Program-made: the position numbers and the translations under genes
In this document: piece by piece, positions 38,540-58,457 of the stretch
Layout: the number at the start of each line of letters is the position of its first letter
Position numbering within the stretch: position 1 is the first letter of the stretch
NCBI RefSeq assembly: GCF_900113175.1
Contig: NZ_FOOK01000003.1
Span: forward strand, 1-64,000
Source of the DNA: Planifilum fulgidum
Lineage (GTDB): Bacteria; Bacillota; Bacilli; Thermoactinomycetales; DSM-44946
Length of the DNA: 64,000 nucleotides
Direction: 5' to 3'
The notes under the pieces: generated by a model
What the model was told of the DNA's origin: nothing
Database searches by the model: none
What the model saw: only the letters and a program-made list of their open reading frames with translations

Positions 38540-39787
38540 ATGCCCAAAGGCCTTTACAATAAACTGTTCGGCACCTATTGGAACCCGTATTTGGCTGTCG
38601 GCCTGGCGGGAGTGCTGAGCGCCCTCTACTTCGGCGCGACCGGCACCGTCTGGGCGGTGACCGGCGAGTTTACCCGTTTCGGCGGACATCTCCTGGAGGC
38701 GGTGGGGGTGGACATTTCCCGATGGGCATACTTCGAGATGGTGAAGATGGAGGGAATGCCCTGGATGCGCACCGATGGCTGGATCGTCTTCGGCATGCTG
38801 TTCGGTGCGCTGATCACCGTTTTGTTGGGCAATCATTTCAAGCTGCGCGTCCCGCAGTTGAAGCGCCGCCTCGTGCAGGGGTTCGTCGGCGGAGCGATCG
38901 CGGGCTTCGGGGCGAGGATGGCGCTGGGCTGCAATCTGGCCGCCTTTTTCACGGGAGTGCCGCAGTTCTCCTTCCATTCGTGGATCTTCATGGTGTTTAC
39001 GGCGGCGGGAACTTATCTCGGCGTCAAGGTGGTGCAAACCCCCTGGTGGAGGGGAAAGCCCAATTTGAAGCGCGTTTCGGCGGGGAAAAGCGCCCTGCCC
39101 GGGAAGAAGGCGCCGCGGCGGAAGGTGCAGCCCGTGCTGGGACTGCTGGTGATGATCCTGTTTGCCGCCATCGTCGTCCACTATTTTCTTTCGGGAAAGC
39201 CCCTTTTGGCCGTGGCCGCCCTGTTCGGAGCCGGCTTCGGGATCCTGATTGAGCGGGGGCAGATCTGCTTCACCTCCGCCTTTCGGGATCTCTGGGTCAG
39301 CGGGCGCGCCGTGATGACCAAGGCGCTGGCCGTGGGGATGATGATCTCGGTGGTGCTGACCTTCTGGCTCATCCAGTCCGGGATGACGCCGATCATCAAG
39401 GTGGCCGCCCCCAGCACGGCGCTGGGAGGTCTCCTGTTCGGATTGGGCATCGTGCTCGCCGGCGGCTGCGAAACGGGCTGGATGTACCGCGCCATGGAGG
39501 GGCAGGTGCTCTTTTGGGTGGTGGGAGCGGGCAATATCGCCGGGGCGACGTTCCTGGCCTATGCCTGGGACCACCTGGGCCTGTACGACGTGCTGACGAA
39601 GGGATTTGCGCCGATCAACCTGCTGGAGGAGTGGGGTTCCTGGGGAGCCCTGTTCGGAACCCTGGCGATGTTGCTCTGCTGGTTCCTGCTCGCCTCCTGG
39701 TGGGAGAAGTTTTACCGGTTCGGCAAGGGACTCAGGGTGGAAAAACCCCGGGTGGCCCTTGGCAGGATGGCCGGAAAACATCAATAA
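38540..39787 (+). CDS. YeeE/YedE family membrane transporter (selenium/sulfur uptake, YedE-like)
   Basis: A 415-aa polytopic protein with about nine hydrophobic helices. The paired family motifs ARMALGCNLAAF (first half) and VLAGGCETGWMYR (second half) carry the conserved cysteines of the thiosulfate/selenium transporter family, with FGILIERGQICFTSAFRD between them. The gene start is in a good context (GGAGGGAGAAAGG). The next gene, 15 nt downstream, is a TusA-like protein, the common YedE-TusA pairing. Known homologs import thiosulfate (YeeE) or are linked to selenium metabolism (YedE). Confidence 0.88.
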   Translation: MPKGLYNKLFGTYWNPYLAVGLAGVLSALYFGATGTVWAVTGEFTRFGGHLLEAVGVDISRWAYFEMVKMEGMPWMRTDGWIVFGMLFGALITVLLGNHFKLRVPQLKRRLVQGFVGGAIAGFGARMALGCNLAAFFTGVPQFSFHSWIFMVFTAAGTYLGVKVVQTPWWRGKPNLKRVSAGKSALPGKKAPRRKVQPVLGLLVMILFAAIVVHYFLSGKPLLAVAALFGAGFGILIERGQICFTSAFRDLWVSGRAVMTKALAVGMMISVVLTFWLIQSGMTPIIKVAAPSTALGGLLFGLGIVLAGGCETGWMYRAMEGQVLFWVVGAGNIAGATFLAYAWDHLGLYDVLTKGFAPINLLEEWGSWGALFGTLAMLLCWFLLASWWEKFYRFGKGLRVEKPRVALGRMAGKHQ

Positions 39788-39801
39788 GGAGGTGTGGAGA
39801 G

Positions 39802-40059
39802 ATGGAGCGTCGCAAAGAGGATCTGGTGGACTATATCCTCGATATCCGCGGGGAGCCTTGACCCTATCCGGTGATTTACGCGCTGGATGCGCTGGGTCAG
39901 ATGAAAGCCGGAGAAGTGTTGCTGGTGATCGCCGACTGTCCGCAGTCATTCCGCAGCGTGCCCGAAGAGGTGGTCAAGCACGGGTACGAGCTGCTAAGCG
40001 AACCGGAGCAGCAAGGGCAGGATCTCTATTTTTACATCCGGGTGCCCGGAAGCGGATAA
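39802..40059 (+). CDS. TusA/SirA-like sulfur carrier with in-frame TGA at the catalytic Cys (candidate selenoprotein)
   Basis: One reading frame of 86 codons encodes an 85-aa TusA-fold protein if the TGA at 39859-39861 (codon 20) is read through. The context is IRGEP-[TGA]-PYPVIYALDAL. In TusA proteins this position is the invariant cysteine of the CPxP motif, so the natural reading is selenocysteine. Start ATG 39802 follows AAGGAGGTG. A hairpin begins at the TGA. The alternative is a TGC-to-TGA nonsense mutation, but frame, ribosome-binding site and downstream codon quality are all preserved. No selA/selB/selD/tRNA-Sec genes lie in this window, so decoding capacity is unproven. Confidence 0.75.
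39859..39899 (+). promoter_or_regulatory. Candidate bacterial SECIS hairpin
   Basis: TGACCC (39859-39864) can pair with GGGTCA (39894-39899). Inside, GCGC (39880-39883) pairs with GCGC (39889-39892) around a TGGAT apical loop. The loop starts 22 nt after the TGA, within the 16-37-nt window of known bacterial SECIS elements, and contains G residues. The left internal loop of 15 nt is large, so the fold is only suggestive. Confidence 0.45.
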
Positions 40060-40065
40060 AAAGGC

Positions 40066-40091
40066 GGCACCTTCGCCCGGGCGAAGGTGCC
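40066..40091 (+). terminator. Strong hairpin after the TusA-like gene
   Basis: GGCACCTTCGCC / GGCGAAGGTGCC, a 12-bp perfect stem with a 2-nt loop, followed only by TTC. It is either a weak terminator or a processing/attenuation hairpin before the PP-loop gene. Confidence 0.6.
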
Positions 40092-40111: not shown

Positions 40112-40783
40112 ATGACCAAACCTGTCGTCTTGTCGTACAGCGGCGGCAAAGATTGCACCTACGCCCTTCACGTGCTGAAGCAGGATCCCGACTGGCAGGT
40201 CGTCCGCCTCCTCACCACGGCCGCCCGGCCTCACCGGCGCACTTCCATGCACGGCGTTCGGATTGAGCTGTTGAAGCGGCAGGCGGCGTCCCTCGGACTG
40301 CCCCTCGACATCGTCTGGCTGGATGAGGACGGCCGGGATTACGAGAGCCGCATGGCGGAGATGCTCGCAGGGTACAAAAAGCGGGGGATTGAGCGGGTCG
40401 CCTTCGGGGATCTCTATCTGGAGGACATCCGGGAATACCGGGAGCATCTGAACGCCTCCGTCGGCCTGGGATCGCTTTTTCCCCTCTGGGGCATTCCGGT
40501 CCGGGAACTGGCGAAGCGGTTTATCGACGACGGATTTCGCGCCGTCGTCGTCTGCGTCGACACCGAGCAGCTGGACGCTTCCTTCTGCGGCAGGGAATAC
40601 GATCTCTCCCTGCTGAAGGATCTTCCCGACTCCGTGGATTGGTGCGCCGAGAAGGGGGAGTTTCACACCTTTTGTTACGACGGCCCCGCATTCCGGAAAG
40701 CCGTCCCATTTTCCCGGGGAGAAAAGGTGCTGAGGGAGGGGCGGTTTTACTACCTCGACCTTCTGCCTGCAACGGGTCCGTGA
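40112..40783 (+). CDS. Adenine nucleotide alpha hydrolase / diphthamide-synthetase-like PP-loop ATPase
   Basis: A 223-aa protein of the Dph6/MJ0570 family. The PP-loop is SYSGGKDCTYAL (residues 8-19). The second family motif FGDLYLEDIREYRE and the C-terminal EFHTFCYDGPAF are diagnostic of this group. Bacteria lack diphthamide, so its role is not amidation of EF2; the family uses ATP to adenylate a carboxyl, amide or sulfur acceptor. It lies 52 nt after the TusA-like gene across a strong hairpin, so a link to sulfur/selenium transfer is conceivable but unproven. Confidence 0.85.
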   Translation: MTKPVVLSYSGGKDCTYALHVLKQDPDWQVVRLLTTAARPHRRTSMHGVRIELLKRQAASLGLPLDIVWLDEDGRDYESRMAEMLAGYKKRGIERVAFGDLYLEDIREYREHLNASVGLGSLFPLWGIPVRELAKRFIDDGFRAVVVCVDTEQLDASFCGREYDLSLLKDLPDSVDWCAEKGEFHTFCYDGPAFRKAVPFSRGEKVLREGRFYYLDLLPATGP

Positions 40784-43653: not shown

Positions 43654-43686
43654 GGAGGCGCCTTTCAAAAGGGGATGGGGAAACCG

Positions 43687-45339
43687 ATGCGAAAGATCGT
43701 GATTGTCGGAGGAGTGGCGGGCGGAGCGACGGCTGCCGCCCGCCTGCGCCGGTTGAGCGAAGGGTATCGGATCGTCCTGTTTGAAAGAGGGGAGTACATT
43801 TCCTTTGCGAATTGCGGCCTGCCCTATTACATCGGCGGCGTCATCCGGGACCGGAATCGGCTTTTGCTTCAAACCGCCTCCGGGATGTCGAAGCGCTTTC
43901 GGATCGACCTTCGCCCGATGACCGAAGTGACGGCCATTCATCGGGACCGGAAGGCGGTGACGGCCAAAGATCTCCGCACGGGGGAGGAATACGAGGAAAC
44001 CTACGATGTGCTGATCTTGTCCCCCGGCGCCCGGCCGATCCTGCCGCCGATCGAGGGCATGGATCGGGCGAAGTCCGTGTTTACGCTTCGGACCATTCCC
44101 GATGCGGACCGCATCAAAGCCTATGTCGAGGAAGAAAAGTCGGCAACCGCCGCGATCATCGGCGGCGGTTTCATCGGCCTCGAGATGGCGGAGAATCTGG
44201 TCGAACGGGGCGTGAAGGTGTCGCTGGTGGAGATGGCGGATCAGGTGCTGCCGCCCCTGGACTATGAGATGGCGTCCATCGTTCATGACTATATGAGAAA
44301 GCGCGGCATCCGCCTGCACCTGGGGGACGGGGCGAAGGCTTTGGATCGGGGAGGCCGGCGTCTGATTCTGAGGAGCGGGAAGACCCTTGAAGCCGACATG
44401 ATCATCCTGGCGGTCGGGGTGGAGCCGGAAAGCGAACTGGCCAGGGAAGCCGGCCTCGAACTGGGCGTCCGCGGCGCCATCCGGGTGAATCGGCGCCTGC
44501 AGACCTCCGATCCCGACATCTATGCGATCGGGGATGCCGTCGAAGTGAAGGACTACATCCACGGCTTTCCGACCCACGTCCCCCTCGCCTGGCCGGCGAA
44601 CAGGCAGGGACGTCTGGTGGCCGACATCATTCACGGCTTTGACGTGCAATACGCGGGAACCCTCGGCACCGCCGTGGTGAAGTTTTTGGGCCTGACCGCC
44701 GCGACGACGGGCAACAACGAGAAAACGCTGAGACGGCTCGGAATTCCCCATGAAGCGGTCCACGTCTTTCCGCCGAGCCACGCTTCTTACTATCCGAACG
44801 CGGCGCCGCTGGCGCTGAAACTGATATTTGATCCGAAAACGGGCAGGATCTTCGGCGCCCAGGCCGTCGGCGAAGAAGGGGTCGACAAACGGATTGACGT
44901 GATCGCAACGGCGATCAAGGGAGGTCTCACGGTCCGGGACCTGCCCGACTTGGAACTGGCCTATGCACCGCCCTATTCCTCCGCGAAGGATCCGGTCAAT
45001 ATCGCCGGTTATGTGGCGTCAAACATCCTCGATCGTCTGGTGGAGACCCTTCAGTGGCACGAGCTGGATGACCATCTCGCTTCCGGAGGCATTCTTCTCG
45101 ATGTGCGGACGCCGGAAGAGGCGGCAAGGGGAGGAATCGGCGGGGCCGTTCACATCCCGCTGGATGAACTGCGGCAGCGTTTGGCGGAGCTTCCGAAGGA
45201 CAAAACGATTTGCGTGATGTGCGGGGTGGGCCTGCGGGCTTATTTGGCGTGCCGGATCCTCACGGAAAACGGTTTTCGGGCGATAAACCTGGATGGGGGT
45301 CATCGGCTGTATTTCTATGCCAAGGGCGGGCAGTCTTGA
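43687..45339 (+). CDS. CoA-disulfide reductase with C-terminal rhodanese domain (CoADR-Rhd/Npsr-like)
   Basis: A 550-aa FAD/NAD(P) oxidoreductase. FAD motif GGVAGGATAAARLRR at residues 8-22. The single redox cysteine is Cys43 in SFANCGLPYYIGG. A central NAD(P) motif GGGFIGLEMAENL and a dimerisation domain follow. A rhodanese domain (about 455-550) has active-site Cys512 in CGVGLRAY. Such fusions reduce CoA-disulfide, CoA-persulfide or polysulfide. Start ATG 43687 gives MRKIVIVGG; ATG 43675 is four codons upstream but directly abuts the AAAAGGGG. Confidence 0.92.
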   Translation: MRKIVIVGGVAGGATAAARLRRLSEGYRIVLFERGEYISFANCGLPYYIGGVIRDRNRLLLQTASGMSKRFRIDLRPMTEVTAIHRDRKAVTAKDLRTGEEYEETYDVLILSPGARPILPPIEGMDRAKSVFTLRTIPDADRIKAYVEEEKSATAAIIGGGFIGLEMAENLVERGVKVSLVEMADQVLPPLDYEMASIVHDYMRKRGIRLHLGDGAKALDRGGRRLILRSGKTLEADMIILAVGVEPESELAREAGLELGVRGAIRVNRRLQTSDPDIYAIGDAVEVKDYIHGFPTHVPLAWPANRQGRLVADIIHGFDVQYAGTLGTAVVKFLGLTAATTGNNEKTLRRLGIPHEAVHVFPPSHASYYPNAAPLALKLIFDPKTGRIFGAQAVGEEGVDKRIDVIATAIKGGLTVRDLPDLELAYAPPYSSAKDPVNIAGYVASNILDRLVETLQWHELDDHLASGGILLDVRTPEEAARGGIGGAVHIPLDELRQRLAELPKDKTICVMCGVGLRAYLACRILTENGFRAINLDGGHRLYFYAKGGQS

Positions 45340-45377: not shown

Positions 45378-45508
45378 CTTCGACTTTTTGTCCTTTTTTC
45401 TTCCCGTTTCCGTCAACGGATTGCCATGGACTGCGGAAATGGCGCGAATTCGTCGAGGTACAATGGAATTGGGAGGATTTAGGACAAAAAGGGGGGAGGG
45501 AAGCATTC

Positions 45509-46645
45509 ATGGGCAAGCGGATTGTTGTTCTCGGCGGGGGGACGGCCGGCACCATGGTGGCCAACCGGCTCGCGCGGCGGCTGATGGATTTGATCCGGTC
45601 CGGGGAGCTGGAAATTTTGTTGATCACCCGTTCCGGGCGGCATGTGTACCAGCCGGGGCTCTTGTCCGTCGTGTTCAGTGAGGCGTTCCCGGAACAGATT
45701 GTCCGGGAGGAAAAGAGCCTGGTTCATCGGGACGTGACGCTCGTGTTTGACGAGATCCGGCGGATCCGGCCCGACCAAAGCTGCGTGCAGTCCCGGACGA
45801 CGGAGTATCCATATGATTACCTGGTTATCGCCACGGGTTCCCGGCCGGATTTTGACGGCGTTCCCGGGCTGAAGGAAAGCGCCCGCCATTTTTACAACCT
45901 GGAAGGGGCCCTGCGGTTGAGGGATGCGCTGGCTTCCATGAAAAAGGGGCGGATTCTCGTCGTGGTGGAACATCCCCACAAGGGGCCGGGGGCTCCGGTG
46001 GAATTCGTCTTGATGCTGGACGACTATCTCCGAAGGCGGGGGCTCCGGGAAGGGATTCAGCTGACCTACGCCTTTTCCGACGGCCGCATCCACTTCCTGG
46101 AACCGGTGGCCGACTGGGCCTTGTCCCAATTCGAAAGGCGCGGCATCGCCCACCAGCCCTTTTTCCGGCTGGAAAAGGTGGATCCTTTTAAGCAAAGGGC
46201 CTTCACTTCGGATGGGGAAGAGCATCCCTTCGATGTGCTGATTGCCGTTCCCGCCCATCGGGGCGCTCCCGTCGTCATGCAGTCCGGGATCGGTGACGAC
46301 CGGGGATTTATTCCCACCGACCGCCACACCTTGAAAATGGAGGGCGACGATCGGGTGTACGTCATCGGGGATGCGGCCAATTTGCCGATTCCGAAAGGCG
46401 GTTCGGCCTATTACCAGAGCGAGATCGTGGCCCAGAACCTGGTCAGCCGGTTGAAGGGTTTGCCGGAAACCTCCGTCTACGACGGAAAAGGGACGTTCTT
46501 TTTGGGAAGCAGCCTTCGGGAAGCCGGTTTTATCGCCTACGATTACGGCTCCTTTCCGAAATTCGCCTTTGGCTCCGAAGTGTTGCGGTGGATCAAGGAC
46601 ATGCAGGGGCCGGCGTACTGGCTGAAGGTCCGCGCGATCCTGTGA
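45509..46645 (+). CDS. Sulfide:quinone oxidoreductase-like flavoprotein lacking the redox cysteines
   Basis: A 378-aa FAD protein of the SQR family: LGGGTAGTMVANRLARR at the N-terminus, ATGSRPDF, and the FAD-binding VYVIGDAANLP. It is closely similar along its length to the SQR at 57318-58457, but the two cysteines that form the SQR trisulfide/disulfide centre are replaced: HKGPGAP has Gly159 (Cys159 in the paralog) and KGTFFLG has Phe330 (Cys331 in the paralog). It is therefore unlikely to oxidise sulfide in the usual way. Start ATG 45509 follows GGGGGGAGGG. A DUF1641 gene follows after 12 nt, as for the paralog. Confidence 0.88.
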   Translation: MGKRIVVLGGGTAGTMVANRLARRLMDLIRSGELEILLITRSGRHVYQPGLLSVVFSEAFPEQIVREEKSLVHRDVTLVFDEIRRIRPDQSCVQSRTTEYPYDYLVIATGSRPDFDGVPGLKESARHFYNLEGALRLRDALASMKKGRILVVVEHPHKGPGAPVEFVLMLDDYLRRRGLREGIQLTYAFSDGRIHFLEPVADWALSQFERRGIAHQPFFRLEKVDPFKQRAFTSDGEEHPFDVLIAVPAHRGAPVVMQSGIGDDRGFIPTDRHTLKMEGDDRVYVIGDAANLPIPKGGSAYYQSEIVAQNLVSRLKGLPETSVYDGKGTFFLGSSLREAGFIAYDYGSFPKFAFGSEVLRWIKDMQGPAYWLKVRAIL

Positions 46646-56374: not shown

Positions 56375-56544
56375 ATTGAACCGGCGGCGTCCGGAGATGT
56401 CCGGGCGAGCCGAAAATCCGAACGGGGAAACGAGGAGGCGCTTTTTTTGGAACGCCGCCGGACGCTCCGTGGATGTCCCCGGCCGACGGGATCGCGGTTC
56501 GAACATTTTTCTCCGATTCGTCAAGGAATGGACACCAAATACAT

Positions 56545-56563
56545 ATACCCGTAATAGTATAAT
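56545..56563 (+). promoter_or_regulatory. Promoter of the DsrE-TusA-SQR operon
   Basis: A consensus -10 TATAAT (56558-56563) just downstream of ATACCCGTAATAGTAT. No good -35 at 17 nt was seen. Because the -10 overlaps an in-frame ATG at 56562, translation most likely starts at GTG 56604. The ATACCC...GTAT pattern may be related to the GGGGGTAT operator before the other sulfur operon. Confidence 0.5.
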
Positions 56564-56603
56564 GGAGGCGCAACACGCACAAAAAGCACAGGGGGGATGG
56601 TCC

Positions 56604-57008
56604 GTGAACCAGCAACAGGCGCCAACTCTGGCCATCATCCTTTTGTCCAAGGATCTGGAGAGGTTGCACGCCGGATCGCTGGTGGGCTCCGTGGCGGCGA
56701 TGTCCGGGATGAGCGTCCGCCTGTTTGTCACCATGAATGCCCTGGAAGCCTTCCTGAAGGAAAACGTGGAAAAGAGAGCGTTTCAGACCGGAACCGTCGG
56801 AGCGGAAATGCTCAGCAAAAACATTCCCTTGTTTTGCGATCTCCTTCGGGAAGGAAAAGAGAACGGCGACCTCCGCCTCTACGCTTGCTCCATGGCGATG
56901 GATGTGATGGGGTGGAAGCGGGAAGATCTGATCGATCTCTTCGACGACGTGATCGGAGTGAGCTCCTTCCTGGGGATGTCGCAGGGGGCTCAAGTCATCA
57001 CGATGTGA
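56604..57008 (+). CDS. DsrE/DsrF-like sulfur-transfer protein
   Basis: A 134-aa protein of the DsrE/peroxiredoxin-like fold. A conserved cysteine lies in RLYACSMAMDVMGW (about residue 99), the position of the sulfur-carrying cysteine in DsrE/TusD proteins; GSLVGSVAAMSGMSVRLFVT is the N-terminal Rossmann-like core. Start GTG 56604 follows GGGGGGATGG; ATG 56562 lies in the promoter. It is followed by tusA, sqr and DUF1641 genes and probably relays sulfane sulfur from SQR. Confidence 0.87.
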   Translation: MNQQQAPTLAIILLSKDLERLHAGSLVGSVAAMSGMSVRLFVTMNALEAFLKENVEKRAFQTGTVGAEMLSKNIPLFCDLLREGKENGDLRLYACSMAMDVMGWKREDLIDLFDDVIGVSSFLGMSQGAQVITM

Positions 57009-57047: not shown

Positions 57048-57287
57048 ATGTCGGAGGTGGAAGTGAAAACGTCGATCGATGCCAGGGGCTCCTTTTGCCC
57101 CGGGCCGCTGATGGAACTGATCAAAGCGATGAAACAGGCCCAAACGGGAGACGTGATCGAGGTGCTGTCCAGTGACACCGGATCCGCCAAAGACATTCCC
57201 GAATGGGCGAGGAAAATGGGACACGAAGTGGTCTATTGCGAACAGGCCGGCGATCATTGGAAAATCGCCGTTCGCAAGGCGAGGTGA
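57048..57287 (+). CDS. TusA-like sulfur carrier protein
   Basis: A 79-aa TusA-fold protein with the intact motif DARGSFCPGPLMELIKAMK; Cys17 is the persulfide-carrying residue. Compare the TusA-like gene at 39802, in which this codon is TGA. Start ATG 57048 follows GGGGAGGCG. Lies 39 nt after the DsrE-like gene and 30 nt before sqr, giving a DsrE-TusA-SQR relay. Confidence 0.92.
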   Translation: MSEVEVKTSIDARGSFCPGPLMELIKAMKQAQTGDVIEVLSSDTGSAKDIPEWARKMGHEVVYCEQAGDHWKIAVRKAR

Positions 57288-57317: not shown

Positions 57318-58457
57318 ATGCCCCGAAGGATTGTGGTCCTTGGCGGGGGGACGGCCGGCACCATGGTGGCCAACCGGCTGGCCCGACGCCTGACGGATCA
57401 GATCCGGTCCAAGGAAGTGGAAATCCTGTTGATCACCAACACCGAGAAGCACATTTATCAGCCGGGATACCTGTCCATCGTCTTCAACGAACAGGCCCCG
57501 GAGCATTTCATTCGGGAGGAAAAGGATCTGATCCGCCGGGATGTCCACCTGATCGTCGACGAGATCCAAAGAATCGAACCGGAACAAAATCGCGTCCTGT
57601 CTGATCGGGCCGAGTACCCTTACGATTACCTGGTGATCGCCACGGGCTCCCGCCCCGACTTCGGCAGCGTCCCCGGCCTGAGGGAAAGCGCCCACAACTT
57701 TTACACCCTGGAGGGGGCCATCCGCCTCCGGGACACCCTGGCCGGAATGAAAAGGGGGAGGATACTGATCACCGTCGACATCCCCCACAAGTGTCCGGCG
57801 GCGCCCCTGGAGATCGCCCTCATGCTGGACGACTATTTCCGGAGGCGGGGTGTCCGGGAGCAGGTGGAGATCAAATACACCTACCCCATCGGCCGGATTC
57901 ACGCCTTAGAATCCGTGGCCGAGTGGGCCTTGCCCCGGTTCGAGGAGCGGGGCATCCTGCATGAGACCTTTTTCAACCTGGAGAGGGTGGATCCGGAGCG
58001 AAAGGCGGTCATCACCATGGACGGGGAGGAGCATCCCTTCGATGTGCTGATTTCCGTCCCGGCTCACAAGGGCGCCCAGGTCATTCTGGATTCCGGGATC
58101 GGCGACGGGATGGGGTTCGTCCCCACCGACCGGCATTCGCTGAAGATGAAGGGTTTCGACAATGTCTACGCGATCGGCGATGCGACCGATCTGCCGATCA
58201 GCAAGGCCGGTTCCACCGCCCATTACCAAAGCGAGCCCTTGATCCGCAATCTCGTCAGCCGGCTGCGGGGCCTGCCCGAAACCGCCGTCTATGACGGCAA
58301 AGTGGCCTGCTTTTTGGAAAACAGCCTGCGGGACGCCAGTTTCATTGTCTTCGATTACGAGCACCCTCCGAAACCCGCCGCCGCTTCCGAACTTCTGCAC
58401 TGGATGAAGATGGCGTACGGGGAGATCTACTGGCTCAACGTCCGCGGAATCCTGTAA
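57318..58457 (+). CDS. sqr: Sulfide:quinone oxidoreductase
   Basis: A 379-aa membrane-associated flavoprotein that oxidises sulfide to sulfane sulfur or polysulfide and passes electrons to quinone. FAD motif LGGGTAGTMVANRLARR, ATGSRPDF, and VYAIGDATDLP are present. The redox cysteines Cys159 (HKCPAAPLE) and Cys331 (VACFLEN) are both there, unlike the paralog at 45509. Start ATG 57318 follows GGGAGGGAG. Followed after 13 nt by a DUF1641 gene. Confidence 0.93.
   Translation: MPRRIVVLGGGTAGTMVANRLARRLTDQIRSKEVEILLITNTEKHIYQPGYLSIVFNEQAPEHFIREEKDLIRRDVHLIVDEIQRIEPEQNRVLSDRAEYPYDYLVIATGSRPDFGSVPGLRESAHNFYTLEGAIRLRDTLAGMKRGRILITVDIPHKCPAAPLEIALMLDDYFRRRGVREQVEIKYTYPIGRIHALESVAEWALPRFEERGILHETFFNLERVDPERKAVITMDGEEHPFDVLISVPAHKGAQVILDSGIGDGMGFVPTDRHSLKMKGFDNVYAIGDATDLPISKAGSTAHYQSEPLIRNLVSRLRGLPETAVYDGKVACFLENSLRDASFIVFDYEHPPKPAAASELLHWMKMAYGEIYWLNVRGIL

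Follow-up and report, generated by a model that had tools for sequence, protein, structure and literature searches.

The yedE-yedF locus

The window, that is, the whole stretch of 64,000 nucleotides of Planifilum fulgidum DNA analysed here, carries a pair of genes, yedE (fdhT) and yedF, which encode a membrane protein and a small protein of the TusA/SirA fold (Table 1). The frame of yedF runs from an ATG to the TAA at 40057-40059 and comprises 85 codons, the twentieth of which is TGA, in the context LDIRGEP-TGA-PYPV. The strong ribosome-binding site and the single frame interrupted just by this TGA, both pointed out in an earlier sequence-only reading of the window, are confirmed from the sequence. 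The two genes are translationally adjacent, the ribosome-binding site of yedF overlapping the stop codon of yedE.

Table 1. Features of the yedE-yedF locus, with the related genes discussed in the text
Feature	Position	Strand	Basis
yedE/fdhT, membrane protein	38540..39787	+	profile and alignment
Ribosome-binding site of yedF, AAGGAGGTG	39786..39794	+	sequence; overlaps yedE stop codon
yedF, TusA/SirA fold, ~85 aa, predicted Sec at codon 20	39802..40059	+	profile and ortholog evidence
In-frame TGA, predicted Sec codon at the CPxP cysteine position	39859..39861	+	TGA in 55 loci, TGT/TGC in 26
SECIS-like hairpin core, GCGC stem / UGGAU loop / GCGC stem	39880..39892	+	comparative
Cys-containing TusA-family paralog, outside the yedE-yedF pair	57048..57287	+	identity and profiles
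selD (with TGA), selA, tRNA-Sec, selB	G000 contig 2, 64377-66914 and 80016-85333		L126, L125, L001, L121

The family assignment of both products is clear from curated profiles. The yedE product scores 556 bits with the YedE/FdhT model NF033796 (cut-off 350). When the TGA is filled with a residue, the yedF product is matched by Pfam TusA (PF01206; 2.8e-19), and with C standing for U it passes the NCBIfam model of single-domain YedF (NF008242; 103.6 bits, cut-off 79). The latter is the sole curated family passed among those compared, as the scores with TusA (NF001423; 36.7 bits), TsuB/YeeD (NF041048; 31.6 bits) and two-domain YedF (TIGR03527; 22.5 bits) are under the respective cut-offs of 78, 147.5 and 110. 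Two-domain YedF shares a SirA-like N-terminal domain and the link to selenium, but its DsrE-like C-terminal domain is absent from the protein encoded here.

The closest solved relative is E. coli YedF (FdhU; PDB 1JE3), which is ~43% identical, also has a single-domain TusA fold, also adjoins YedE (FdhT) and also passes NF008242. Its tie to selenium comes from co-occurrence and from formate dehydrogenase (FDH) phenotypes in Campylobacter. The motif GEPCPYP of the E. coli protein aligns with GEPUPYP here, so that the CPxP motif reads UPYP at a position that is conserved and is Cys in sister genes; unlike the protein predicted here, E. coli YedF has Cys at CPxP and is not a selenoprotein.

yedE is the upstream neighbour of yedF in 81 of 81 loci, the window included, and no neighbour beyond yedE is conserved among the other yedF loci compared. 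Since yedE alone is widely shared, the diphthamide-synthase-like (Dph6-type) ATP pyrophosphatase encoded immediately 3' of yedF (40112-40783) is regarded as a local neighbour. The gap between these two genes holds a 26-base perfect palindrome, GGCACCTTCGCCCGGGCGAAGGTGCC (40066-40091), with a run of T behind it solely when it is read on the minus strand.

Decoding of codon 20

Among 84,980 species genomes scanned, 80 relatives were detected, 79 of them with the motif. The codon equivalent to codon 20 is TGA in 53 of these other-species orthologs, TGT or TGC in 26, and nothing else in any. A genome of the same genus likewise has TGA at this codon, which together with the window brings the TGA set to 55 loci against 26 in the Cys set. 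The ortholog comparison proposed in the sequence-only reading thus bears out its claim that the TGA replaces the invariant TusA cysteine of CPxP. Genera with TGA include Neobacillus, Bacillus, Cytobacillus, Mesobacillus, Robertmurraya, Schinkia, Calidifontibacillus, Litchfieldia, Siminovitchia, Aneurinibacillus, Brevibacillus and Tumebacillus; those with Cys include Paenibacillus, Cohnella, Oceanobacillus, Heyndrickxia, Pullulanibacillus and Pelosinus. Judged by this comparison, the recurrence of TGA at one codon in 55 loci of many genera far exceeds chance. No TGA-containing YedF was found outside Bacilli among 398 genomes of the phylum, where 7 more YedF-like genes (E <1e-17) all have Cys. 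Among the TGAs counted there, those of L137 and L149 stand at the gene end, and that of L140 lies just ahead of the conserved part.

Translation table 11 assigns TGA to stop, and mechanical ORF callers yield just a 62-aa fragment, as they would if the TGA were a real stop or a sequencing error, or the gene a pseudogene, with the frame from the GTG at 39871 a leftover; this reading is already refuted by the recurrence of the TGA at 55 loci spread across numerous genera, by strong conservation of the protein 3' of the TGA and by the frozen hairpin described below. An internal start at that GTG was likewise rejected, because the conserved frame spans the TGA.

The second line of evidence is the presence of the complete selenocysteine machinery. 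The search proposed earlier for selA, selB, selD and tRNA-Sec with anticodon UCA found all four in the Planifilum fulgidum genome. The tRNA-Sec gene lies on contig 2, with selB (361 bits) ~3.4 kb past it; selD stands immediately ahead of selA (623 bits) and has an in-frame TGA of its own within the GUGCK motif. A tRNA 2-selenouridine synthase is encoded as well.

Across genomes, selB is present in 54 of the 55 with TGA-yedF vs 8 of the 26 with Cys-yedF (Fisher p 1.4e-6 on a subset of genomes; the counts ignore kinship), the one TGA genome in which selB was not found, L053, being a metagenome bin. Of 50 genomes tested, 47 have SelD, among them every one of the 18 Cys genomes without SelB, and 45 have tRNA selenouridine synthase. 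Furthermore, selD itself contains an in-frame TGA in 20 of the 22 TGA-YedF genomes having selD and in 0 of the 18 selB-less Cys genomes. Taken with the selB counts, the frequencies of SelD and selenouridine synthase indicate that the YedE-YedF pair tracks selenium use generally; the selB and selD-TGA counts indicate that Sec at the YedF active site tracks the ability to make Sec.

The third line of evidence is a hairpin behind the TGA, with the consensus GCGC-UGGAN-GCGC or a compensated version of it. Its core, a 4-bp stem with a 5-nt loop, occupies positions 21-33 counted from the U of UGA, the loop beginning 23 nt past the UGA, and it forms in 55 of 55 TGA genes and in 0 of 26 Cys genes. Codon choice reflects this conservation: Leu+8 is CTG in 55/55 TGA genes, as compared with 6/55 and 13/55 at the invariant leucines -7 and +20 (p 8e-28), and the alanines at +7 and +10 are encoded by GCG in 104 of 105 cases vs 14 of 95 at other alanines (p 6e-40). 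Two of the four base pairs vary on both sides, that is, with compensatory changes. The stem ACGC/GCGU occurs in L042, L049 and L053 and, separately, in L090; GCAC/GUGC occurs in L114, where the compensating change turns Ala into Val.

In bacteria, the SECIS element follows the UGA directly and carries a G in a small apical loop (PMC1088965); the hairpin has both features, with G at position 2 of its loop. It should be noted that the lowest-energy fold of the window sequence alone is a longer alternative stem rather than the conserved hairpin, and that single-sequence folding is weak evidence here (mean z -0.92 for the TGA genes and 0.04 for the Cys genes); the SECIS assignment therefore rests on comparison. 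On these comparative grounds, the conserved, covarying hairpin downstream of the TGA is a SECIS element.

Suppression or a recoded genetic code, by which the TGA would be read as Trp or Cys, is so improbable as to be negligible: no evidence favouring such readthrough was found, the genome has the Sec machinery, whose occurrence tracks the TGA, all relatives without TGA have Cys at this position, and the hairpin accompanies TGA exclusively.

Since an in-frame UGA aligned to the conserved Cys of homologs, Sec machinery, co-occurrence with selB and the hairpin all coincide, yedF is, in our opinion, a true selenoprotein gene, and it is next to certain that UGA codon 20 is decoded as Sec by SelB and tRNA-Sec with the aid of the SECIS hairpin. 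The explanation preferred here, which takes in the supply role proposed below and is held at a probability of roughly 0.8, is that yedF encodes the selenoprotein form of YedF (FdhU), the TusA-fold partner of YedE (FdhT).

The tree of 79 YedE genes requires 3 state changes, which fits one gain and two losses of Sec. Within the TGA clade, L043 (Aneurinibacillus) has a Cys yedF; it has kept selB and lost the hairpin stem. Its sister in the YedE tree is the TGA gene of L071, from a second Aneurinibacillus species: L043 5040 has Cys without the hairpin, L071 5034 Sec with it. From the sequences, the pair is a natural Sec-to-Cys change that took place without loss of selB from the genome.

SirA-like proteins and YedE/YedF have been linked to selenium through gene neighbourhood and co-occurrence (PMC2432076, PMC5322559). 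The sequence-only reading had gone further, stating that certain selenoproteomes include SirA-like proteins with Sec; this was not borne out, as the links in the literature concern neighbourhood and co-occurrence, not selenoproteins. The inventory of May 2026, with 119 prokaryotic selenoprotein families and subfamilies, includes rhodanese, DsrE-like and YeeE/YedE selenoproteins, and TusA, SirA or YedF is absent from it (PMC13188914). No report of a Sec-containing TusA, SirA or YedF was found in the open literature; subscription papers were mostly outside the scope, and an earlier report is possible. The gene thus apparently represents a selenoprotein variant of a known family that has not been listed previously and is present in at least 55 genomes. 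Such genes are readily overlooked, because gene callers end at UGA.

Two known selenoproteins are instructive for comparison. The YeeE/YedE-family selenoprotein of the 2026 inventory (motif GUxSG) carries Sec in the transporter half of such a pair, that is, in the membrane protein, whereas here it is the TusA-like partner that has Sec, YedE retaining Cys. Sec-SelD, which is also found in the Planifilum fulgidum genome, likewise serves selenium supply while being a selenoprotein, but it has another fold and enzymatic activity and is already among the known selenoproteins.

A possible role in selenium supply

Precisely three cysteines of YedE, C131, C310 and C243, are invariant, being present in 79 of 79 genes. 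C131, C243 and C310 align with C293, C22 and C91, respectively, of YeeE from S. thermophila; the two halves of YedE stand in reverse order relative to YeeE/TsuA, with the relay cysteines kept. In YeeE, the cargo is handed along C293, C91 and C22, and C17 in the CPxP motif of YeeD, located beside C22, is the fourth, catalytic cysteine (PMC11073785). The alignment and the YeeE-YeeD structure together thus suggest that Sec20 of YedF stands for this fourth cysteine, and Sec20 most likely accepts, on the cytoplasmic side, the chalcogen relayed through the three YedE cysteines, passing selenium towards SelD.

The YeeE-YeeD system of thiosulfate uptake (TsuA-TsuB; 8K1R, 8J4C) resembles YedE-YedF in combining a membrane protein that has three relay cysteines with a TusA-like partner that supplies the fourth chalcogen. 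It belongs to another subfamily, and YedE-YedF differs from it by its selenium-linked genomes, its swapped halves and Sec in place of Cys.

We infer the following mechanism, which as a whole we hold to be somewhat more likely than not. A selenium species, possibly the selenium counterpart of thiosulfate or selenide held in persulfide form, would cross the membrane through YedE along the three cysteines. The selenolate of Sec20 would dock at the cytoplasmic exit of YedE, take over the selenium, forming a perselenide or selenosulfide, and give it to SelD, which would feed the synthesis of Sec and of tRNA selenouridine. A selenolate is a stronger nucleophile than a thiol at neutral pH, a property that would suit the capture of trace selenium. 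In species without Sec machinery, the Cys form of YedF would perform an equal job. Cys evidently suffices in genomes that lack SelB while having SelD and, in most cases, selenouridine synthase; Sec would thus be an improvement or a regulatory link rather than a strict need.

According to the literature, the form and donor of the selenium supplied to SelD have been worked out incompletely (PMC13188914), and a transporter dedicated to selenium has yet to be firmly identified (PMC11097638). The cargo and direction assigned to YedE here are putative, an exporter having been proposed too (PMC5322559). In Methanococcus maripaludis, deletion of yedE had no clear effect on selenium transport (PMC11097638), and loss of fdhT in Campylobacter lowered FDH activity in part only (PMC11237541). 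As regards a Sec-containing formate dehydrogenase as a client, the two molybdopterin oxidoreductases found in the Planifilum fulgidum genome are both without TGA.

The occurrence of Sec in Sec-using species and of Cys in SelB-less species that keep SelD links the YedE-YedF pair to selenium and points to residue 20 of YedF as a selenium carrier. Part of the selenium-supply line thus appears to need selenium for its own synthesis, in this genome and in at least 54 others. A succession from YedE to Sec-YedF to Sec-SelD, in which YedF of Bacilli acquired Sec and later exchanged it for Cys, mostly with loss of SelB (Paenibacillus and kin), is put forward tentatively, at slightly less than even odds. 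If it is true, selenium supply would be self-reinforcing, with two successive steps before selenocysteine synthesis performed by selenoproteins.

The same dependence could mean that the Sec codon serves chiefly to sense selenium: YedF would be made only when Sec-tRNA is plentiful, the supply line would be set by selenium status, and Sec would bring no catalytic gain. UGA decoding is indeed selenium-dependent, and the next enzyme, SelD, bears Sec in the great majority of TGA genomes that have it, so that both steps would react together. The sensor reading is quite improbable nevertheless, for Sec is placed precisely at the catalytic residue and not elsewhere in the frame, and an importer made solely at selenium plenty would fail when needed most.

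A somewhat better, though still unlikely, alternative accepts the selenoprotein and assigns it a sulfur cargo, Sec serving as a faster acceptor of sulfane sulfur or thiosulfate in the way that YeeD uses Cys. It agrees with the match of fold and partner relation to TsuA-TsuB and with SQR-like, TusA and DsrE-like genes ~17 kb off in the window. Against it, YedE and YedF are assigned to selenium-metabolism families and not to TsuA/TsuB, and SelD and selenouridine synthase are nearly always present, even where Sec is absent. Of the two roles suggested in the sequence-only reading, in which the protein carries selenium or uses Sec for faster sulfane-sulfur chemistry, the evidence favours selenium handling as the probable one; the premise of Sec in the protein is supported by the machinery, the orthologs, selB and the hairpin.

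TusA paralog and other sulfur-related genes of the window

The Cys-containing TusA-family gene at 57048 had been taken to show that the organism keeps both the Cys and the Sec type. The gene exists, but its product is only 33% identical to that of yedF and falls under every curated cut-off; as a Cys ortholog of yedF it was rejected, being a paralog from another TusA subfamily, and it is therefore no proof of Cys and Sec forms of one protein.

Two paralogous flavoproteins without TGA are encoded at 57318-58454 and 45503-46642, one of them adjoining TusA and a DsrE2-like gene (56376-57008). The best family of both is NF049943, "type III sulfide quinone reductase, selenoprotein subtype", with scores under the cut-off. 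The region 43675-45336 encodes a CoA-disulfide-reductase-like protein (TIGR03385, slightly under cut-off), followed by ~105 residues in which a rhodanese-like stretch, CVMCGVG, occurs.
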